Below are positions 42,361-62,568 of a DNA stretch of 64,000 nucleotides, in pieces; within the stretch, counting starts at the first letter, position 1, and the number at the start of each line of letters is the position of its first letter. The stretch lies in the IMG/VR virus record IMGVR_UViG_3300042154_002696, positions 1 to 64,000 of that record; one strand, written 5' to 3'. This DNA is from a virus. The notes under the pieces are model-generated. The model did no database searches, was not told the DNA's origin, and worked only from the letters and a program-made list of their open reading frames with translations. Position numbers and translations under genes: made by a program.

Positions 42361-44181
42361 TTATCTCAATTCTCTTAAATCAAATGTTCTAACACCATCT
42401 ACTGTAATTCTGCCGTAAAATCTATTATTCACCATTTTCTTAGCGTATCTGGTCATGATACCTTTGATTGGTGTAAAGTTAAACGGATTGTACATAGTTG
42501 GAGTTAATTGTAGGGGTACGTATGGTGCGTAAATGTAACCAGTATCCAATAGAGATGTGCCTTTGTGACCCATTAACACTTGGTTAGCTGGGAAATAAGG
42601 GTCTCTGTATACTTGGTAACGACCTGCCAATGTACCAACTCTTTCAATACCCATGTTGTATTGGTCTTGCTCAGGAGCTGCGTTTGATACGTGGAAATAC
42701 TCCAAGTCATCAAAAATTGCACTGATTTCAGAAGAAACAACAATCCAATTTGCTCCACCTCTTAAGGTAGATTTGTGGATTTGAGCTGAAATTTGGTTGA
42801 TTGCTGTAATCAAGGTTTGGTTCCAATCTTTTTGAGTGTATGGAACTGCACTTGAACCTAAACGTTTCCAACCATTATAATCCCATCTTAAGTTCCATGC
42901 TGCACCTTTACGTAAATCACGTAAGATTTCTCTGTCGATTTCAGCCGCAACTTGTTCTGATAATAAAGCTGTTAATTCAGCCTCAGCATCAATGTTGTGG
43001 AATGCTGCAACGTCTTGTGCCATTTCTGGAGACCATTGAGCTCTTAATTTTCTTTCAGTCACAGAAACTGTTACTGACAATAAGTCAAACGATACTTCAC
43101 CAATTCTATCTTCAAACTCTAAGTTTTTGTAGATTCTGTAAGTTGCACCAAATGCACAACCAGTAGTTGTTAAATCACTAGATGTTGTTGAAGAGAAAGT
43201 TGAACCTGTGTAACCGTCCATAGAACCACCACAAGTGATACATACTGGAACTTGTAAGTCAACTTCTAAGTAAATTTTACCGTTAACGTCACATATGTTG
43301 TCGTATTGACCACCACCTGTTCTAGAGTTAGGGAAAGCTGCAGGGTCGTTAGCTGTACCGTATTCTACAATACCTTTACCATATTTTTGAGTTACTACTC
43401 TAAATAAATAAGGGTTAGTAGCATTTGCAGCTGTTGTTGGATTATTTGCGTTACCGTAGATAGTTAAATCAGATAAGAAAGATTCGTTATCCATTGGGTT
43501 ACCATCAGGACCGATTAATTTACCTGCTGCTACAGTAGCAAAACCTTCCATAACGATTAACACTTTTCTGTAATCGCTTAGTCCATAACCTGAAGCAACT
43601 AATGAACTACCTACAGAACTCCACACAACTGTTGTTACTGGTGCAGTAATTGCGGAATATTGTCCTTTAGAATAGTCAAATAAACCTGGTGGGTCTAATG
43701 CTGGTTCGTTACCTTCATAAAATCTGTCATAAAGGTCTTTAGTTAAAGCGTAGTCATAACCTGCGCCAGGAGTAGCTTGTGTAGCGTTTGGTGAACCATA
43801 CGGTGCGTAGTGGATACCTGTGTTGTTAGCTCCATCATTTTCGTATTTTTGAATGTTAGGTACGAAGTAGAATAACTTACCGATTGGTAAGTTCATAGCT
43901 TGTACTGAAACGATGTCGTTTGCTAATAGTTTAGAGAATACACGTCTAACAATTGGGAAAACCACTGTTTCAAAAGCTCCTGTATCAGAAGTAGATGATG
44001 CTTCATTGATTAAGAATGATGCTTGGTTTTCGTATAATTGTGCTACGTTTTCTCTCATGTGACCTTTAAGACCTTCTAAAAAGCCTAATTTGTCCCATTT
44101 GTTGATTGTGTCTTCTTTGATAACTTTAAGGTGCTTAAGACCGATGTTACCGACAAGACCTGATTCTAATAATGCTCCCAT
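42361..44181 (-). CDS. Major capsid protein, gp23-like
   Basis: 606 residues, ATG at 44181. The N-terminal third carries the gp23 pattern: ENVAQLYENQASFLINEAS, then VVFPIVRRVFSKLLANDIVSVQAMNLPIGKLFYFVP. The C-terminal part has MTRYAKKMVNNRFYGRI near the end. INE at residues 58-60 fits the (L/I)xE cleavage site of the prohead protease, close to the T4 site at Glu65, so a mature protein from A61 is predicted. It forms the hexameric capsid shell. Longer than T4 gp23 (521). Follows the scaffold gene with a 41-nt gap and ends in a strong terminator. Confidence 0.92.
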   Translation of the reverse strand: MGALLESGLVGNIGLKHLKVIKEDTINKWDKLGFLEGLKGHMRENVAQLYENQASFLINEASSTSDTGAFETVVFPIVRRVFSKLLANDIVSVQAMNLPIGKLFYFVPNIQKYENDGANNTGIHYAPYGSPNATQATPGAGYDYALTKDLYDRFYEGNEPALDPPGLFDYSKGQYSAITAPVTTVVWSSVGSSLVASGYGLSDYRKVLIVMEGFATVAAGKLIGPDGNPMDNESFLSDLTIYGNANNPTTAANATNPYLFRVVTQKYGKGIVEYGTANDPAAFPNSRTGGGQYDNICDVNGKIYLEVDLQVPVCITCGGSMDGYTGSTFSSTTSSDLTTTGCAFGATYRIYKNLEFEDRIGEVSFDLLSVTVSVTERKLRAQWSPEMAQDVAAFHNIDAEAELTALLSEQVAAEIDREILRDLRKGAAWNLRWDYNGWKRLGSSAVPYTQKDWNQTLITAINQISAQIHKSTLRGGANWIVVSSEISAIFDDLEYFHVSNAAPEQDQYNMGIERVGTLAGRYQVYRDPYFPANQVLMGHKGTSLLDTGYIYAPYVPLQLTPTMYNPFNFTPIKGIMTRYAKKMVNNRFYGRITVDGVRTFDLRELR

Positions 44182-46120: not shown

Positions 46121-46843
46121 TTATTTTCCCAAATAATCGTTCAATTTTTTCATTAAGTCAATTCCTTTGGTTTGAAATTCAGAATTTTCAGGTGATTTAT
46201 ATTTTTTTTCTTCTTCAATATTCTCGTCATACTTACTTCTATCCTCAGCATTACTAAATAAATAAGCCCCAGGAGTTGATGGAGATGATACCAAATCAAA
46301 ACAAATTAATTCAAAATCATCTTGAACTTCATTTCTTTCACCTACTTTTTTTAAGGAACCTACCCCTCTTGAAGATACTCCCATTGTTACACCTTGTCTC
46401 ATTAGATTAGCGGCTTGGTCTCCTTTGGTGGATACAATACCTCTCTCGTGAAATCCTGGTGAGGTTAACAATTTAAGTTTACCCATCAGAATGTTTGCTT
46501 CCCACCATATATCTGTGATAATGTGAGCTACTCGGTCTAAGTCAATTAAGGATGACTCAGGGTGATTAAGTTCTGATGTTGATAAACCTTTGGCAATTGC
46601 CTTCTTGTAGTTCTCAGCTTCTCTTTTTAATATCCTTTCAGGATAGAATCTTCCATTTCTATTTGGAGTGTCATATTTTTGTAACACCGCATAAAATTCA
46701 AATGGATTTCTATAATCTAAAGTTGCTGCTTCCTTTAACATTATGGAATTACGAACATCTTTAGGAGAAACCCAACCTGCGTCTGTTTCAATTAATATAC
46801 CGTGACCAACTTCATTTGCTTCTAAAATTCTTAACTTTTTCAT
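46121..46843 (-). CDS. Prohead core protease, gp21-like
   Basis: 240 residues, ATG at 46843. The pattern AVLQKYDTPNRNGRFYPERIL, then STSELNHPESSLIDLDRVAH, GKLKLLTSPGFHERGIVS, and MGVSSRGVGSLKKV, then FDLVSSPSTPGAYL matches phage prohead serine proteases with His in ELNHP and Ser in SSRG. It cuts scaffold and capsid proteins at (L/I)xE sites during maturation. Gene order portal, protease, scaffold, capsid is as in T4, with extra genes between. Confidence 0.9.
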   Translation of the reverse strand: MKKLRILEANEVGHGILIETDAGWVSPKDVRNSIMLKEAATLDYRNPFEFYAVLQKYDTPNRNGRFYPERILKREAENYKKAIAKGLSTSELNHPESSLIDLDRVAHIITDIWWEANILMGKLKLLTSPGFHERGIVSTKGDQAANLMRQGVTMGVSSRGVGSLKKVGERNEVQDDFELICFDLVSSPSTPGAYLFSNAEDRSKYDENIEEEKKYKSPENSEFQTKGIDLMKKLNDYLGK

Positions 46844-46883: not shown

Positions 46884-47321
46884 TTAAATTTTTTTCTCTT
46901 TTGAAAGTGAAAAATCAAAGTATTTATTTTCAATTACATTATCTCTGACAATATTTTTTATAATTTTTTTAATAGATTCCTTTATTTCTGAAGATTTAAA
47001 ATCCATTTCTTGATTGGTATATAAATTAACTTCTAAGTTAAAAAATGATTTTTTTCCGTGTAAAATACCACTTGTTCTTAAGTCTAAATCTACAATACTT
47101 GTTTCTTTAAAAAGATTAGAATCAATTGAGTTAAATACTGAATGTTTAATTTCTCTATTTAGATTACCCACGACCCGATTCCAATTGTCGTGTTCAAATT
47201 TGGGGGAAACCCAAGATTGGATGTTTATGTACAGGGATTTAAGATTCTTAGAATCTACAGTACCATAGACCGATTTTATCGGACTATACAGATTTAACTT
47301 TACACTTTTGCCTTTTTTCAT
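46884..47321 (-). CDS. Unknown head-region protein
   Basis: 145 residues, ATG at 47321. Beta-alpha pattern with KSLYINIQSWVSPKFEHDNW, then VVGNLNREIKHSVFNSIDS, TSIVDLDLRTSGILHGKKSF and FNLEVNLYTN, and a helical tail. No membrane part or catalytic motif. It lies between the portal-side gene and the protease and is divergent from bS21. A head-assembly role is suggested only by location. A perfect palindrome sits 7 nt before its ATG. Confidence 0.6.
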   Translation of the reverse strand: MKKGKSVKLNLYSPIKSVYGTVDSKNLKSLYINIQSWVSPKFEHDNWNRVVGNLNREIKHSVFNSIDSNLFKETSIVDLDLRTSGILHGKKSFFNLEVNLYTNQEMDFKSSEIKESIKKIIKNIVRDNVIENKYFDFSLSKEKKI

Positions 47322-47328
47322 TAAACTT

Positions 47329-47342
47329 CATTGATATCAATG
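47329..47342. promoter_or_regulatory. Perfect 14-bp palindrome, candidate operator
   Basis: CATTGATATCAATG, an exact dyad in the 100-nt divergent gap between the gene at 47321 and bS21. It starts 7 nt before the leftward ATG. A dimeric repressor could bind here; no regulator is identified. Confidence 0.4.
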
Positions 47343-47421
47343 TTTATTTATTTAGTGAAAAAATAATACAAAATAATACCATTGTCAAAAAAAATTCAAT
47401 AAATTAAAGTATTTGTATAAT

Positions 47422-47610
47422 ATGTTAGTAGTAAAAATAAATAATGGTGACCTTAGTAAGGCGTTAAAAACTTTAAAATCTAAAGTTATCAAAACTAAAC
47501 AGAATCAAATGTTATTTGATAAAAAAGAATTTGTAAAAAAATCTGTTGCAAAAAGAAGCCAAAAATTAAAGGCAACTTACATACAAAAAATAAGAACTTC
47601 CTTAGATTGA
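47422..47610 (+). CDS. rpsU: Phage-encoded ribosomal protein bS21
   Basis: 62 residues from the ATG at 47422; a TTG at 47413 would add three residues and is rejected. LVVKINNGDLSKALKTLKSK, then KKEFVKKSVAKRSQKL and KATYIQKIR match the bS21 family, with the C-terminal pattern (SVAKR..KLKA.YIQ) typical of Bacteroidota. bS21 binds the small subunit next to the 16S rRNA 3' end; in Bacteroidota it helps hide the anti-Shine-Dalgarno sequence, with a Tyr at about this position (Y53 here) involved. Only plus-strand gene in this part; its end overlaps the minus gene at 47602 by 9 nt. TATTTGTA, one mismatch from the late box, is 4 nt before the ATG. Confidence 0.88.
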   Translation: MLVVKINNGDLSKALKTLKSKVIKTKQNQMLFDKKEFVKKSVAKRSQKLKATYIQKIRTSLD

Positions 47611-48300
47611 TTCTTCTAAGTTTTTTAACTTAAGAAAATTTAATTGGTCAAACTTTTCGGACTTTAATCTATCAATAGTTTCAGACAATTTTGTTTTTAA
47701 CTCAAATTCCTCTTCTTTTTCTAAGATTGAATTAAGTTTACATATTGCACTTTCTCTAATAGTTTCAAATTTACCCTCAAGAGATTTTGTGTCTTCAGAC
47801 ATTAATTGAATAAATTCTTTTTTTGTTGTTTCATCTAAATTATCCACAAAATTACTTAAAGTTTGATTTGCAATACTAACCATAGATTTTAATGGAAGAT
47901 TAATTGATTCTTTAACAATGCTGGTTTTAGAAACTAAAACACTTGTGATGTTCTTTTTAGAATTAATTCTTTCTAATAAGTTTAATTTATTAGTATAAAC
48001 AAGAGTATCAATGTCAGAATATTTGTTCTCAATGTTTTCCGAAATAGTACTTGGTAATTTAATGTTCGGTAATAAATTTTGGATTAAACTAATACCTTCC
48101 TCTAAGAAATCCTTAGCGTCAGATTCATTTAGTCCTTGAGGAGTATTCAATTGGTCGTATAAAGAATACAATTTAGACATATTTTTGTTATTCAAAACAT
48201 TATGTTTGAATTCTTTTAACAATTTCTTGAATTCCTTTTCATCTTTGTAGGATTCAAAAAGATTATTTTCAATTATGGATTTGATTTTTCCGAACGTCAT
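47602..48300 (-). CDS. Unknown head-region protein
   Basis: 232 residues, ATG at 48300. Almost wholly helical, Lys/Glu/Ser-rich (KEFKKLLKEFKHNVLNN, LSNFVDNLDETTKKEFIQL, ILEKEEEFELKTKLSETI), with coiled-coil-like heptads. It follows the portal gene, where T4 has small core proteins (gp67/gp68). The N-terminus GKIKSIIENNLFE has a IIE site for the prohead protease. A prohead core protein is plausible, not shown. Confidence 0.6.
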   Translation of the reverse strand: MTFGKIKSIIENNLFESYKDEKEFKKLLKEFKHNVLNNKNMSKLYSLYDQLNTPQGLNESDAKDFLEEGISLIQNLLPNIKLPSTISENIENKYSDIDTLVYTNKLNLLERINSKKNITSVLVSKTSIVKESINLPLKSMVSIANQTLSNFVDNLDETTKKEFIQLMSEDTKSLEGKFETIRESAICKLNSILEKEEEFELKTKLSETIDRLKSEKFDQLNFLKLKNLEESI

Positions 48301-48317: not shown

Positions 48318-48325
48318 TATAAATA
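48318..48325 (-). promoter_or_regulatory. Late-motif box TATTTATA
   Basis: TATTTATA on the minus strand immediately after the portal stop, 17 nt before the ATG at 48300. Confidence 0.5.
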
Positions 48326-50179
48326 TTATGAGTTTAATAACTTATCCAATTCTTTTGAAATTTCTCCTAAAGAATCTTGTCCTTGTGATAAATTTAAGAA
48401 TCTTGAGTTCTCACCAAAATTACTTTCTAACAAAATATTCATATTAGCAATCTTAGATTCTGGTGTTACCTCACCTCCTGCTGGCGGTGGTGGTACCTCT
48501 CCTCCTTCAGGTGGTAATGGTGCTTCTCCTCCTGCAGGCGGAGGTGAGCTAAATGCTTCCATTCCTGTTGCTCCTCCTTCTTCACCTCCTCCTGTGGTTG
48601 CAGTTGCGGTTGCAGTACCTCCTGAATTATTACCATATAATTTATCAATATTATCAAATAAACCTGTTTTGGTGATAACGGTAGGAGTTGCTTTAAGTTC
48701 TTCTCCAACAGCTCTTTCAATTCTTTGTTGTTGTAAATCTAATCTGATTTCTTCGTCGGACCAATTAAAGATATGTTTTTTAGCCCAAGTTGAAGATGTT
48801 GCTTGAATACCGTTTCCTGGGTCGGCAACCAAATCTTTATATAATAACACTTTTTCTTTCCAAACGTCAATCTTTAATAAGTCTGCTTGGGTAGATGGAT
48901 TAGATAATCCTAATGTAAAGTTTTGTAATTCGTCTTCAAACCCTAATAAAAATAAGTGAACAATTGCAATCTTATTAAGTTCAGCAATCATACTTTTTTG
49001 AATTCTGTTAATTGTACGAGCAAAACGAATATCTTGTAATGATAAGTTTTTACCATCACCAACAACTTCCTCAAAACCTAAAAATGCTTTAGGAACACGA
49101 AGAGCCGTTAATAATTTCTTTTGGATATATTCTATATCAGCAATCTCTGATAGGTTTGTTGCTCCTGGTAATGTTGTAATTGGGTCTGGTGCTGCTGGGT
49201 CACGAACAGGAATAAAATAATCTTGGTCAACAGCCATTTGGTTGAATCTCATATCCACATTACCTGTCTTTGAATCTACAACTTGTTCTCTTTTAAACTT
49301 ATTGGCAACACGATTAACATACGCTTCAACATCATCGTCATTCATATTACCTACGAATACTTTGAACATTCTTCTTTCAGGTGCTCTTGAAGTTCTATAA
49401 ATTAACATCGCATCTTCAGATAATAATAATTGTTTCCAAATACGTCTTGCCTTTTCTAACATTGAAGTACCATAAGGAAGTTTTCTATCGTCACCCAATA
49501 ATCTAAAGTGACCGACTTCCCACGATTGGAACTCCATATTTCTATTTTTCCAAGTAAAGTGAAGAGCTTTTTTGTTCTCGTCTTTTTCTAAGGTGATATC
49601 TGTGGTAATTCTTGCACTAACACCAATTTCGTGACGTTCAATTTCAATTGTCGGTAATTGTTGACAACCAATAATACCTTTTTCAGGGTCTAATTTTAAA
49701 TAGATAAAATTATCACCATACTTACAAGTATTTCTTGTCCACATCGGTAGGTTGGTATTAATATCTAAGTTATTGTTAAATAAATCCGCTAATACTGATT
49801 TTATACGTTTTGATTCAGAATAAATTTGAAGAATAAAACCATCTTCGTTTGTGGTTGTTGATTCTTCTGCATAAATGTCTAATGCTGCAGAAATCTCAGG
49901 GGTATACTCCATTGATTCGTAATCATATTGAGCGGATAACCTTGACGGTTCATAATAAATCGCTTGGGAATATAAATTGTTTTCAACCTTTGCCCATTGA
50001 TTTGTTAAATAAAATGTTTGTTGTGCTTGAAGTTTTTCTCTTTCAAAATCGTCACGATTTGTTGTACGTAGAAGTTCAGTTTTGTCAAACTTAAATGTAG
50101 GATAATCCTGTTTTAATAATGAGTTTGGTCCAAATGTTTTGGACAACCTCTGCCATACTGTTGAATTATTATCGCTCAT
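48326..50179 (-). CDS. Portal protein, gp20-like
   Basis: 617 residues, ATG at 50179. gp20-type features: SRLSAQYDYESMEYTPEISA and ALDIYAEESTT near the start, then CKYGDNFIYLKLDPEKGIIG, RKLPYGTSMLEKARRIWKQL, and RAPERRMFKVFVGNM, then QKKLLTALRVPKAFLGFEE. These are typical of T4-type portals, which form the dodecameric vertex for DNA entry. The last 80 residues are a Gly/Pro-rich tail (PPPAGGEAPLPPEGGE) not found in T4. The box at 50208 precedes it. Confidence 0.92.
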   Translation of the reverse strand: MSDNNSTVWQRLSKTFGPNSLLKQDYPTFKFDKTELLRTTNRDDFEREKLQAQQTFYLTNQWAKVENNLYSQAIYYEPSRLSAQYDYESMEYTPEISAALDIYAEESTTTNEDGFILQIYSESKRIKSVLADLFNNNLDINTNLPMWTRNTCKYGDNFIYLKLDPEKGIIGCQQLPTIEIERHEIGVSARITTDITLEKDENKKALHFTWKNRNMEFQSWEVGHFRLLGDDRKLPYGTSMLEKARRIWKQLLLSEDAMLIYRTSRAPERRMFKVFVGNMNDDDVEAYVNRVANKFKREQVVDSKTGNVDMRFNQMAVDQDYFIPVRDPAAPDPITTLPGATNLSEIADIEYIQKKLLTALRVPKAFLGFEEVVGDGKNLSLQDIRFARTINRIQKSMIAELNKIAIVHLFLLGFEDELQNFTLGLSNPSTQADLLKIDVWKEKVLLYKDLVADPGNGIQATSSTWAKKHIFNWSDEEIRLDLQQQRIERAVGEELKATPTVITKTGLFDNIDKLYGNNSGGTATATATTGGGEEGGATGMEAFSSPPPAGGEAPLPPEGGEVPPPPAGGEVTPESKIANMNILLESNFGENSRFLNLSQGQDSLGEISKELDKLLNS

Positions 50180-50216: not shown

Positions 50217-51980
50217 TTAGCGAGCACCAAATAACCATCCATATTTTTGGTAATCGGCTTTAGTAGCTGCACCATTATTGTTCAAAGTATTATCTCTACC
50301 CATTTGTGGTATCAATGGGTTAAAGAATTCTGATGAATTTTTATTTTCATTTACCGTAGTCGCCCAAGAATTTATCATAGCCTTTGTATGATTGGTTACT
50401 TTCTCTAAAGATTGAAAAGATTTTTCGGCAACATACAATGCCATTGAAACCCCCATGATACAGTCGTCGTGATGATTTTTTTGATGGTCAGGTCTTCCGT
50501 TAATATAAATGAAAGTATTCATTTCATTATACAATCGGTTTGAATACACTTTAAATCCGTGTCTTACATTTTCTTCAAATGCGGATATGATTTGAACTCT
50601 TTTTGAGTTAAAGTTAATCCCCGGTATTTTGTCGTTAATTTTTGGGTCCCATTTCCATTTATTCGTGGTATCAACATTATCAACATATAAACCACCTTGA
50701 TAACTTAATTCTTGGAGTTTTCTTGCCGTAGAAATACCCATACCCCCCGTGATATCAATAACACAATAGGCGTTATACATTGTTCCCCACTTATAAGCAA
50801 TCTCTGCCAATACATCTGGTGGAACCTTGGCAACATATTCCAATACCTGTTCTCTTTCGTCAAAATCGATGATTTGAATACACGAGAAATCCTCAGAGTC
50901 ACCACGGGATACATCCACACCCATAACATACTTATGTCCGTTTACAGGTTCTTTAAATATCCATAACGAACCACCCATCAGTTTAGCTTGGGGGTCACGT
51001 AATGTGTTTTTGGCAATATCTTGCATCAATTCAGATTCAAATACGTTATCACCTGAACCTAAGAAGTCACACTCTAACTCCTGAGCAACCTTTCTCCTAT
51101 CAAATTTTAACTTTTTAACCATACCCTCAAACCAAGATGAGCATGGTTTATATCCTTGAGCAATATAGTCGGTTACAACTGAATGGTCTCTTTCATATGG
51201 GTTTTCCATAGATAAATCAATCACATCTTTAGTTGTATATTCTTCTCGATTTAATAGAAAGTGAACCAAATCATTAGTTTTAACCATATACAAATCTTTT
51301 GTATATCTTGGGTCACGATACCAAAACATCTCAGATATTTTGAAATCGTTCATATTTCTTAATGATTGGTCGTAAATCTCATAATAAATTGCATCGTATC
51401 CGTTTGGTGTGGATACAACAATAACTTTACCACCCGTAGATAGTGAAGCCATACAGGCAGACCAGAAATCTCCGTCTGCTTCAATAAACGCCGCCTCGTC
51501 AAATATAAGGATTGTTGGAGTATAACCCCTCAAAGCATCCTTTGATGTTGCAACGGCTTTAACTTCACAATCGTTAGTTAACTTAAAATGTCTTTGTGAA
51601 TTTTTTTCTTTTGAGAACCCTATTCCGACCCATGGAGGCCATTGTTCTGTAAAGTTTCTAATTTTGTTAGCCATCTCGACGGATGTATCTAACTTATTGG
51701 CAATGATTAGGATTTTTTCGGGTTTGTTCTTTTTGGCAAACACCAATTTTTTTGATGCCCATGCAGCGGTAACTGTTGTTACACCCGCCTGACGATACTT
51801 TAACGCAATATTTTCATTGAATTTATCGTAATCATCTATTAAACTAACTTGGTCGGGGAATAAGTCCAAAGGGACATATTTGGATACGGTATTATCGTAT
51901 GTTTGTAAGTAGGTACGAAGTGCATAAGGAGTATTCCTCATACACTTCGTAGCTTCAATTATTAATTGTTCTTTATTCAC
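50217..51980 (-). CDS. Terminase large subunit, gp17-like
   Basis: 587 residues from GTG at 51980; an ATG at 51941 is the alternative. An upstream ATG at 51988 is out of frame and stops at once. ATPase: Walker A-like KYRQAGVTTVTAAW, Walker B TILIFDEAAFIEADG, coupling SLSTGGKVIVVSTPNG. Nuclease: MGVDVSRGDSEDFSC, YCVIDITGGMG and NHHDDCIMGVSMAL give the three acidic groups of the RNase H-like fold. It drives DNA packaging and cuts concatemers. Gene order to portal matches T4 with portal next. Confidence 0.95.
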   Translation of the reverse strand: MNKEQLIIEATKCMRNTPYALRTYLQTYDNTVSKYVPLDLFPDQVSLIDDYDKFNENIALKYRQAGVTTVTAAWASKKLVFAKKNKPEKILIIANKLDTSVEMANKIRNFTEQWPPWVGIGFSKEKNSQRHFKLTNDCEVKAVATSKDALRGYTPTILIFDEAAFIEADGDFWSACMASLSTGGKVIVVSTPNGYDAIYYEIYDQSLRNMNDFKISEMFWYRDPRYTKDLYMVKTNDLVHFLLNREEYTTKDVIDLSMENPYERDHSVVTDYIAQGYKPCSSWFEGMVKKLKFDRRKVAQELECDFLGSGDNVFESELMQDIAKNTLRDPQAKLMGGSLWIFKEPVNGHKYVMGVDVSRGDSEDFSCIQIIDFDEREQVLEYVAKVPPDVLAEIAYKWGTMYNAYCVIDITGGMGISTARKLQELSYQGGLYVDNVDTTNKWKWDPKINDKIPGINFNSKRVQIISAFEENVRHGFKVYSNRLYNEMNTFIYINGRPDHQKNHHDDCIMGVSMALYVAEKSFQSLEKVTNHTKAMINSWATTVNENKNSSEFFNPLIPQMGRDNTLNNNGAATKADYQKYGWLFGAR

Positions 51981-58901: not shown

Positions 58902-60917
58902 ATGAACGAATTAATGGACGACGACGACAAAGCAATGGGTAAAAAACAAAAATCAACCGCAGAATCTAATACACCCGTTTTAGATAATTTTAGCAGAGAT
59001 TTAAACAAACTAGCAGAAGCTGGTAAACTTGACCCTGTGGTTGGTCGTGATAGAGAGATATTAAGGATAGCACAAATCCTGTCTCGTAGAAAGAAAAACA
59101 ACCCAATTATCCTTGGTGAACCTGGTTGTGGTAAAACCGCACTTGTTGAAGGTTTGGCAATTAAGATTGTGAATGGGGAATGTCCTCGTAATTTGGTTGA
59201 CAAACGTATTGTTAACCTTGATTTAACTTCGGTTGTTGCTGGTACAAAGTATCGTGGACAATTTGAAGAAAGAATGAAGGTGATTATTGAGGAGTTACAT
59301 GCAAACCCAAACATCATTGTGTTTATTGATGAAATTCACACATTGGTTGGTTCAGGTAATTCTTCAGGTTCAATGGATGGTTCCAACATCTTCAAACCAG
59401 CACTTTCTCGTGGTGAACTTCAATGTATTGGAGCGACCACATTGGACGAGTTCCGTAAGAACATTGAAAAAGACGGAGCATTGGAACGTAGATTCCAAAA
59501 AGTAATTGTTGAACCATCAACTGTGGCAGAGACAATTCAAATTCTTAAGAATGTTCGTGATAAATACGAAAATTTCCACAAGGTGAATTATAGTGATGAG
59601 GTTATTGAGACTTGTGTTAAGTTGGCAGACCGTTACATCACCGACAGAGAGTTCCCTGATAAAGCGTTTGATATCTTGGATGAGGTTGGAGCAAGAATGC
59701 AAACCGACTTAAAAGTTCCTGAGGTTATTGAGGAGTTGAAAAAGAAGGCTGCCGAGATTAAAGTCCAAAAATTAGAAGTAGTTAAAAAACAGAACTACGA
59801 ACAAGCAGCAGAACTTCGTGATAAGGAAAAGAAATTGTTAATTAAACTTGAACAAGAAAAGTTTAAGTTTGAAGAACAGATGTCTAAGGAAAAACAAACT
59901 ATCCTATTGGAACACGTTTATGATGTTGTTTCAAACATGACCAAAATCCCCGTGAATAAGATGAGTGTTGACGATACCAAAGCATTGTTAGATTTGGATA
60001 AAAACTTAATCGGTAAAGTTATTGGTCAAGACGCGGCGGTTATTAAAGTTGCAAAGTCAATCAAAAGAAATCGTTTAGGTATCAAGGACCCTAACAGACC
60101 AATCGGTTCATTCATATTCTTGGGGTCAACAGGTGTTGGTAAAACACTATTGGCTAAACAAATCGCAAAAGAAATGTTTGGTTCTGAAGATTCACTTATC
60201 CGTGTAGATATGAGTGAATACCAAGAGAAACACACAATCTCTAAATTGGTAGGAGCACCTCCAGGTTATGTGGGTTATGAAGAAGGTGGATTGTTAACTG
60301 AGAAAGTTAAAAACAAACCATACTCAGTAATCTTATTTGATGAGGTTGAAAAAGCACACAAAGATGTGTTCACCATCTTACTTCAAATCTTGGATGATGG
60401 CCACGTAACCGATAGTTTGGGTCGTAAGATTAACTTCAAGAATACCTTGATTATCTTAACTTCAAACTTGGGTGTTAAAAAACTACAAGATTTTGGAACA
60501 GGTATTGGTTTCTCTTCTAATACATACAGTAATGAGGAAGCTAAGAAACAAATGTTGATGAAGGAAATGAAGAATTTCTTCTCTCCCGAATTTGTAAACC
60601 GTATTGATGATACAATCGTGTTTAATTCACTATCTCAGGATGATATCAAGAAGATTACCGATATTGAATTGAAGAAGTTGGTGACTCGTCTTGTAGATAT
60701 GAAATACAACATCAGTTATGATGATACCTTGGTTGAGTATTTGGCTAAGATTGGTTATGATGAAATGTATGGAGCTCGTCCACTGAAAAGAGCTATCCAA
60801 GATAAGGTTGAAGACTTATTGTCGGAAGAAGTTCTAACAGGTAAGTTGATTGAGGGTAAAAATTACCTCATCAAAGTAGTGGATGAAAATGTGATAATTC
60901 AAAAGAAAGGACGATAA
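58902..60917 (+). CDS. ClpC-like AAA+ unfoldase without N-domain
   Basis: 671 residues, ATG at 58902. Starts with about 24 unconserved residues, so the Clp N-domain is missing. First AAA domain: Walker A GEPGCGKT (72-79), Walker B VFIDEIHTL. A UVR-like middle segment (KKQNYEQAAELRDKEKKLLI, about 295-315) marks the ClpC type. Second AAA domain: Walker A GSTGVGKT, PPGYVGYEEGG, Walker B ILFDEVEKAH. I535-G536-F537 lies where ClpC has its ClpP-docking loop, and the MYGARPLKRAI end is intact. It probably feeds substrates to host ClpP or acts as a disaggregase. It is richer in C-ending and CGT codons than its neighbours, suggesting recent transfer or high expression. Confidence 0.9.
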   Translation: MNELMDDDDKAMGKKQKSTAESNTPVLDNFSRDLNKLAEAGKLDPVVGRDREILRIAQILSRRKKNNPIILGEPGCGKTALVEGLAIKIVNGECPRNLVDKRIVNLDLTSVVAGTKYRGQFEERMKVIIEELHANPNIIVFIDEIHTLVGSGNSSGSMDGSNIFKPALSRGELQCIGATTLDEFRKNIEKDGALERRFQKVIVEPSTVAETIQILKNVRDKYENFHKVNYSDEVIETCVKLADRYITDREFPDKAFDILDEVGARMQTDLKVPEVIEELKKKAAEIKVQKLEVVKKQNYEQAAELRDKEKKLLIKLEQEKFKFEEQMSKEKQTILLEHVYDVVSNMTKIPVNKMSVDDTKALLDLDKNLIGKVIGQDAAVIKVAKSIKRNRLGIKDPNRPIGSFIFLGSTGVGKTLLAKQIAKEMFGSEDSLIRVDMSEYQEKHTISKLVGAPPGYVGYEEGGLLTEKVKNKPYSVILFDEVEKAHKDVFTILLQILDDGHVTDSLGRKINFKNTLIILTSNLGVKKLQDFGTGIGFSSNTYSNEEAKKQMLMKEMKNFFSPEFVNRIDDTIVFNSLSQDDIKKITDIELKKLVTRLVDMKYNISYDDTLVEYLAKIGYDEMYGARPLKRAIQDKVEDLLSEEVLTGKLIEGKNYLIKVVDENVIIQKKGR

Positions 60918-61731: not shown

Positions 61732-62568
61732 TTATCTTCTTGTTCTCCAATCATATTTGGAGGCTTTCATATAGTGTAATTTGTTACCAAGAGATTCAAT
61801 CATTTTTCTACCCATATCAATTCCGTTAAACACATCTTCAACAACAACATATTCGTTTCTTGTGTGGTAGTCATAATAACCAATTGAAAAGTTAATACAA
61901 GAGAAGTCAAATTTACCTCTTAAAGCGTAAACATCGGTGTAGGGGTGAACCATATACTTCATACTGTTATTATCCATACCTTCAGTCAAAACTTTATCAC
62001 AAGCATCAAAGAATTCTGTTTCTCTATTAAATAAAACTTGACCAAAACATTTTTCGGTAATCATCCAATTCTCAGGTGCATCAAATTGGATTCCATATCC
62101 AACATTGGTGAAAAATTCTTCACTCGCCTTAAGTGAACCATGACAACCTGTTTCTTCGGATACAAAAAACGCCGCTTTGATATTTGGTAATTCACTTAAT
62201 AAGGTTAAACAAGCAAAAACACCACATTTATCATCACCACCAATACCAGTTGGGTCTCCCATATCATTGTATGCTTTGTATGATAATTTTACTTGATTTT
62301 GAGCATTAAACAACATTTCTTCCATAATGTTAATGGTATCAATATTGTGGACGGTATCTGTGTGAGAAATAACACACGGGAAATAAAAATCTTCAGGTAA
62401 TTCTGAGGATTCTTGTTTTGTTGCATATACGTTGTTGTGTTCGTCAACAAAGTGTTGAATTTTGTTTTCGGTTAACCAATTAACCAAAAACTCAACCATT
62501 CTTTCTTCTTGGTATGTCTTTGTCGGAACACTTAATACTTCCTTAAGTAATTCTAAATTTTTATTCAT
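61732..62568 (-). CDS. M20-family peptidase (PepT-like)
   Basis: 278 residues, ATG at 62568. All five metal ligands of the M20 di-zinc site are visible: H69 and D71 in SHTDTVH, D112/D113 in GIGGDDKCG, E138/E139 in VSEETGCHGS, D163 in QFDAPEN, and H235 in YYDYHTRNEY. It seems to lack the separate dimerisation domain, so it is shorter than PepT or CPG2. Likely an aminopeptidase or tripeptidase, perhaps recycling amino acids from host protein. It has a perfect host-type promoter giving a leaderless mRNA. Confidence 0.85.
   Translation of the reverse strand: MNKNLELLKEVLSVPTKTYQEERMVEFLVNWLTENKIQHFVDEHNNVYATKQESSELPEDFYFPCVISHTDTVHNIDTINIMEEMLFNAQNQVKLSYKAYNDMGDPTGIGGDDKCGVFACLTLLSELPNIKAAFFVSEETGCHGSLKASEEFFTNVGYGIQFDAPENWMITEKCFGQVLFNRETEFFDACDKVLTEGMDNNSMKYMVHPYTDVYALRGKFDFSCINFSIGYYDYHTRNEYVVVEDVFNGIDMGRKMIESLGNKLHYMKASKYDWRTRR

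Follow-up and report, generated by a model that had tools for sequence, protein, structure and literature searches.

Among ribosomal proteins, bS21 is the one most frequently carried by phages (PMC9976891). The closest described system is that of Chen 2022 (PMC9723584), in which the bS21 gene of Bacteroidetes phages lies on the reverse strand within a block of TerL, portal, protease and MCP genes, is flanked by two hypothetical genes, encodes an aromatic residue at the position of Tyr54 and stands apart from host bS21. The mechanism proposed there is also the one that a preliminary description of the present DNA put forward from the sequence. The gene, its place and its proposed role are already published, and the locus described here is of the same kind; our record is a 73,954-bp fragment. 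Neither 'promoter' nor 'motif' occurs as a word in the text of Chen 2022 (PMC9723584), and that text does not describe the upstream element, the absence of a late-type motif and of a Shine-Dalgarno (SD) sequence, or the promoter swap reported below; the element, the swap and the SD contrast were not found in the literature searched.

Two further systems frame the comparison. The bS21 of Pelagibacter phage HTVC008M, also of cellular source, enters E. coli ribosomes, but its host is proteobacterial and the protein is not of the Bacteroidota type (PMC6375957). The rpsU genes of Flavobacteriales encode the same protein family with the same C-terminal anchor, including Tyr54 (PMC9976891). Loss of bS21 or of its C-terminus in Flavobacterium johnsoniae raises initiation on rpsU and lowers it on SD-less mRNA, and through its SD the rpsU mRNA can be autoregulated by bS21-less ribosomes (PMC9976891).

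The window, that is the whole stretch analysed, comprises 64 kb of the 73,954-bp virus record and contains at 47422-47610 on the + strand an open reading frame of exactly 62 codons from ATG to stop. A TTG three codons upstream is a possible alternative start; the ATG is favoured because it aligns with Met1 of host bS21. The translated protein matches Pfam PF01165 (Ribosomal_S21) at 28.1 bits, above the curated cut-off of 27, as the single such match in the whole record, and among solved structures its closest relative is the bS21 of F. johnsoniae (7jil_z), aligned over the full length with E 4.8e-7 and 42% identity. Both matches bear out the bS21 pattern first noticed in this 62-residue frame. 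The Bacteroidota-like C-terminus noted at the same time is equally borne out, since Tyr53 aligns with host Tyr54 and the terminal ...TSLD with host ...DSLE. Matches were present in 315 of 396 genomes of one Bacteroidota order, and a scan of genome contigs returned one host bS21 at 38% identity. A nucleotide search of phage records gave no near match to the locus, a protein search of them gave five huge-phage records only, all below 50% identity, and a PHROGs search gave no match for the window bS21. Scans of the window for Rfam families and tRNAs returned nothing, so that no described RNA family accounts for the region upstream of bS21. One flavobacterial-order genome carries two equal-score bS21 matches 8.5 kb apart (G498:C1:3683484 and 3692039), and two or three matches also occur in some other host genomes.

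The gene sits inside a T4-like head block whose order is terminase, portal, 232-aa protein, bS21, 145-aa protein, prohead protease, a small DUF4494 protein, an acidic scaffold-like protein and the Gp23 capsid protein. Terminase large subunit (Terminase_6N, phrog_2, 50217-51980), portal (Portal_T4, phrog_213, 48326-50179), prohead protease (Peptidase_S77, phrog_207, 46121-46843), scaffold and major capsid protein (Gp23, phrog_138, 42361-44181) are all encoded on the - strand, so that bS21 opposes TerL, portal, protease and MCP within a few genes, just as in the phages of Chen 2022. Its immediate neighbours at 46884-47321 and 47602-48300 are likewise on the - strand, which verifies the opposite orientation first described. 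The convergent neighbour (232 aa, 47602-48300) overlaps the 3' end of bS21 by 9 bp, has no family match and is predicted to be all-helical; a structure search returned no PDB match and no function for it. It is possibly the bS21_CN of Chen 2022 (family fam498), conserved opposite-strand neighbours of bS21 being present in 113-115 of 117 loci, and possibly a prohead-core gene. The divergent neighbour (145 aa, 46884-47321) also lacks a family match; for its confident alpha/beta model (pLDDT 89.5) the only good structural match (E 3e-11) is a Myoviridae sp. ctPuP5 protein that is itself uncharacterised, and a AAATAAAC-type motif near its start is kept in relatives. Between bS21 and this gene lies a perfect 12-bp palindrome, ATTGATATCAAT, at 47330-47341, which relatives do not keep exactly.

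Relatives were taken from two IMG/VR scans, the second of which yielded at least 504 confirmed matches. Among the matches listed, 117 usable viral loci represent 68 distinct bS21 proteins. The 232-aa and protease genes were each found in 113 of the 117 and the 145-aa gene in 115, at constant side and strand, and gene order around bS21 is retained in about 113. The open reading frame is not a chance one, as both the gene and its neighbourhood are kept in viral relatives. A tree of host and viral bS21, which the preliminary description had proposed as a check, places the 68 phage sequences as one clade on one side of a single branch (SH-aLRT 86), apart from 60 host sequences, one long-branch host row adjoining the phage set; the tree, built on 63 columns, is weak at its inner forks, and its host rows are all from Bacteroidota.

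Immediately upstream of bS21 we found a bipartite element private to this gene. Its upstream box, ATTGTCAAAAAAAATT, occupies 47381-47396 on the + strand (consensus in relatives [T/A]GTCAAAA.TTTT), and its downstream box, AGTATTTGTATAAT, occupies 47408-47421 on the + strand beside the start codon (consensus gATATTTGTA.TAT), with the TTTG ending 6 nt before the ATG. The combination [T/A]GTCAAAA-TTTT...gATATTTG ends about 6 nt before the ATG in 57-58 of the 68 distinct phage genes, the box starts being 24-26 nt apart in most and the downstream box keeping a near-constant distance from the ATG. Within the window, the upstream box at bS21 is the only occurrence with a TATTT partner; 99 of 114 element matches in 874 kb of loci sit at bS21, as do 8 of 9 in eight long contigs (0.86 Mb), and 30 randomised windows gave no match with the geometry of the bS21 element.

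TAnnTTTG is the motif recognised by the primary sigma factor of flavobacteria, whose -7 box lies at -12 to -5 (PMC9723704). The downstream box fits this motif only in part, its first T usually missing and its last G replaced by C in about 14%. We regard the bipartite element as a putative promoter of bS21; the primary-sigma rule (PMC9723704) predicts a transcript start about 2 nt ahead of the ATG, and by our reading of the motif's position the bS21 mRNA would be nearly leaderless. Elsewhere in the window, a peptidase-like gene (phrog_4191, 61732-62568, - strand) is another candidate leaderless gene: a complete promoter of the host type, TTG-N19-TATCTTTG, ends 4 nt before its ATG and is the only one of its kind before a window gene.

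A different motif marks the neighbouring structural genes. Of the 28 window genes preceded by a gap of 20 nt or more, 12 have TATTTAT before them, against an expectation of 0.5. The motif lies 4-18 nt from the ATG at most sites, and the sites include those upstream of the genes at 46121, 47602, 48326 and 55762; that of the 232-aa gene is at 48319-48325 on the - strand, 18 nt from the ATG. In relatives it precedes the 232-aa gene in 57 of 57, protease in 65 of 65, scaffold in 60 of 60 and portal in 48 of 48, but neither the 145-aa gene nor the capsid gene has it. That it stands ahead of head genes suggests that TATTTAT is a late promoter. The motif is absent at the bS21 start in the window and in most relatives, the downstream box there differing from it by one base. 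TATTTAT also occurs 77 nt upstream of bS21 in the window and in some relatives, which makes a second, leadered bS21 start possible.

One subclade of six members (L021, L040, L123, L129, L140 and L141) has exchanged these signals: the box is gone, and the late-type motif, as TATATTTAT, is found roughly 19-26 nt upstream of the bS21 ATG. The divergent gene in these six keeps its own AAATAAAC-type motif, so the box appears tied to bS21 and not to the divergent gene. This bears on whether all or part of the upstream box serves the 145-aa gene, with bS21 being read in some other way. Read on the - strand, the box offers TTGACA 17 nt from TATTTT, the region's best sigma-70-like match (10 of 12). Where the box is lost, however, the divergent gene and its motif persist while bS21 has the late-type motif, the second box holds a near-constant distance to the bS21 ATG, and the motif read by the primary sigma factor of flavobacteria is TAnnTTTG (PMC9723704). 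We therefore judged a divergent sigma-70 promoter the less likely assignment, and the reading as a whole rather improbable.

The start regions also differ from those of host rpsU genes. GGAGG precedes 0 of 67 phage starts in the window, and an SD was found before bS21 in none of the 68 distinct phage genes. Among 59 distinct host rpsU genes, 18 carry a strong SD; the TAnnTTTG box of the host genes, where found, lies 19-65 nt before the ATG. The autoregulated rpsU of F. johnsoniae is preceded by a 25-nt leader that includes a strong SD (PMC9976891), whereas the phage gene lacks an SD and, judged by motif position, would be almost leaderless; the strong-SD leader of a host-like autoregulated rpsU is thus seen in 0 of 68 phage genes. 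The other 41 of the 59 host genes lack a strong SD, which limits any argument from feedback to some hosts. Phage and host mRNAs look alike, both being SD-less and A-rich before the ATG. That phage mRNAs might be SD-led, with phage bS21 unmasking the anti-SD, was considered and rejected, as there is no SD and the Tyr is kept.

The very short leaders ascribed earlier to the phage mRNAs hold as a statement of motif position, the ends of the 15 TATTTAT sites within 60 nt of window starts lying at a median distance of 11 nt from the ATG. Most transcripts of flavobacteria carry leaders, with a median of 24 nt and 5.5% of transcripts leaderless in F. psychrophilum (PMC9723704), and with leaders over 10 nt in 87% of F. 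johnsoniae transcripts (PMC6847099). The further suggestion that phage bS21 favours leaderless mRNAs found no direct support; in E. coli it is ribosomes lacking bS21 and other proteins that selectively translate leaderless mRNA (PMC4929434).

Comparison of phage and host proteins divides bS21 into two parts. K40, S42 and R46 are invariant in both sets and K51 and A52 nearly so, all five being retained in the window protein, and residue 54 of phage bS21 is Tyr in 86% and His in 13%. Residues 18-33 (TLKSKVIKTKQNQ-L-F) are nearly fixed among phages, with K27 and Q28 at 100%, and differ sharply from those of hosts, F. johnsoniae included. They agree with the divergent positions 21, 23, 25 and 28 of Chen 2022 (PMC9723584), which puts this N-terminal part near the mRNA path. 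The C-terminal anchor of the predicted protein is host-like, and the part near the mRNA path, by Chen's placement, is not; phage bS21 may therefore do more than imitate its host counterpart.

The reading we prefer, to which we give an even chance, is that phage bS21 substitutes for host bS21, favours SD-less mRNAs and is uncoupled from host feedback. It would stand in for host bS21 at the 30S platform, where the conserved C-terminal helix and Tyr53 would keep the 16S rRNA tail, with its anti-Shine-Dalgarno, tucked away, holding 30S subunits in a state fit for the phage's SD-less mRNAs. Replacement of host bS21, as first proposed, is plausible given the conserved anchor, as is continued masking of the 16S tail; the late timing attached to this replacement is not secured. 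The host rpsU of many Flavobacteriales, with its strong SD, would be made when ribosomes are without bS21, whereas the phage gene, with no SD, a predicted near-zero leader and a putative promoter of its own at the start codon, would be made even when ribosomes are full of bS21. With a private, conserved promoter-like element almost on its start codon, phage bS21 probably stands outside the control applied by the host to its own bS21. We infer that the phage protein enters ribosomes, as pelagiphage bS21 does in E. coli, there leaving ribosomes at about 5% activity (PMC6375957), and that host rpsU would be repressed as a side effect. More tentatively, and short of calling it probable, we propose that the private near-leaderless promoter uncouples bS21 from both rpsU autoregulation and the late programme, so that ribosome composition would be set before late expression, one subclade having swapped to a late promoter. 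The conserved element, the promoter-swap clade as a natural contrast and the prediction on host rpsU feedback offer testable handles on how phages profit from bS21.

Expression late in infection, assumed in the preliminary description, was also concluded by Chen 2022 (PMC9723584), where bS21 RNA levels track those of the opposite-strand neighbour and the structural genes. If bS21 were made together with the structural proteins, its altered N-terminal half could steer ribosomes to phage mRNAs. The published metatranscriptome levels (PMC9723584), the position among structural genes, the nearly fixed residues 18-33 and the late-type motif in the six-member subclade are all consistent with such late selection. 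Most bS21 starts nevertheless lack the TATTTAT that portal, protease, scaffold and neighbour carry in 100%, the gene has an element of its own, and it lies antisense to late transcripts, overlapping its convergent neighbour, with no terminator found between the two. Read-through from that neighbour into bS21 would give the same RNA picture. The printed methods of Chen 2022 (PMC9723584) count mapped bases and do not mention strand, although strand handling may exist unreported, and the reads behind the late expression described there could be antisense. Late timing is not secured on these grounds, and we consider late mRNA selection unlikely, if by no means negligible.

Phage bS21 might instead make ribosomes poor at host initiation, selection of phage mRNAs being secondary or absent. 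Such a shut-off draws on the divergent N-terminal half and on pelagiphage bS21, which cut GFP synthesis to about 5% in E. coli; that test crossed host phyla, a possible cause according to its authors (PMC6375957), and a general block would hit phage mRNAs too, as they resemble those of the host. We regard it as improbable. A bS21 without an active role in translation, carried as a passenger or as a virion component, would suit a gene in the head block, and Chen 2022 names packaging as a possibility (PMC9723584), but the C-terminal anchor residues and the promoter-like element are both strongly conserved throughout a diverse clade, which makes this very improbable indeed.

Two other regions of the window touch on published remarks about bS21 phages. 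McNutt 2023 speculated that such phages might encode a protease removing host bS21; the window encodes a Clp-type ATPase/ATP-dependent protease (phrog_4871, E 1e-238) at 58902-60917 on the + strand, for which no link to removal of host bS21 is shown. A long + strand run at 12560-33514 holds sugar and surface-polysaccharide genes, including a glycosyltransferase, a UDP-glucose dehydrogenase and an aminotransferase, and genes of this kind were likewise noted in the phages of Chen 2022 (PMC9723584).
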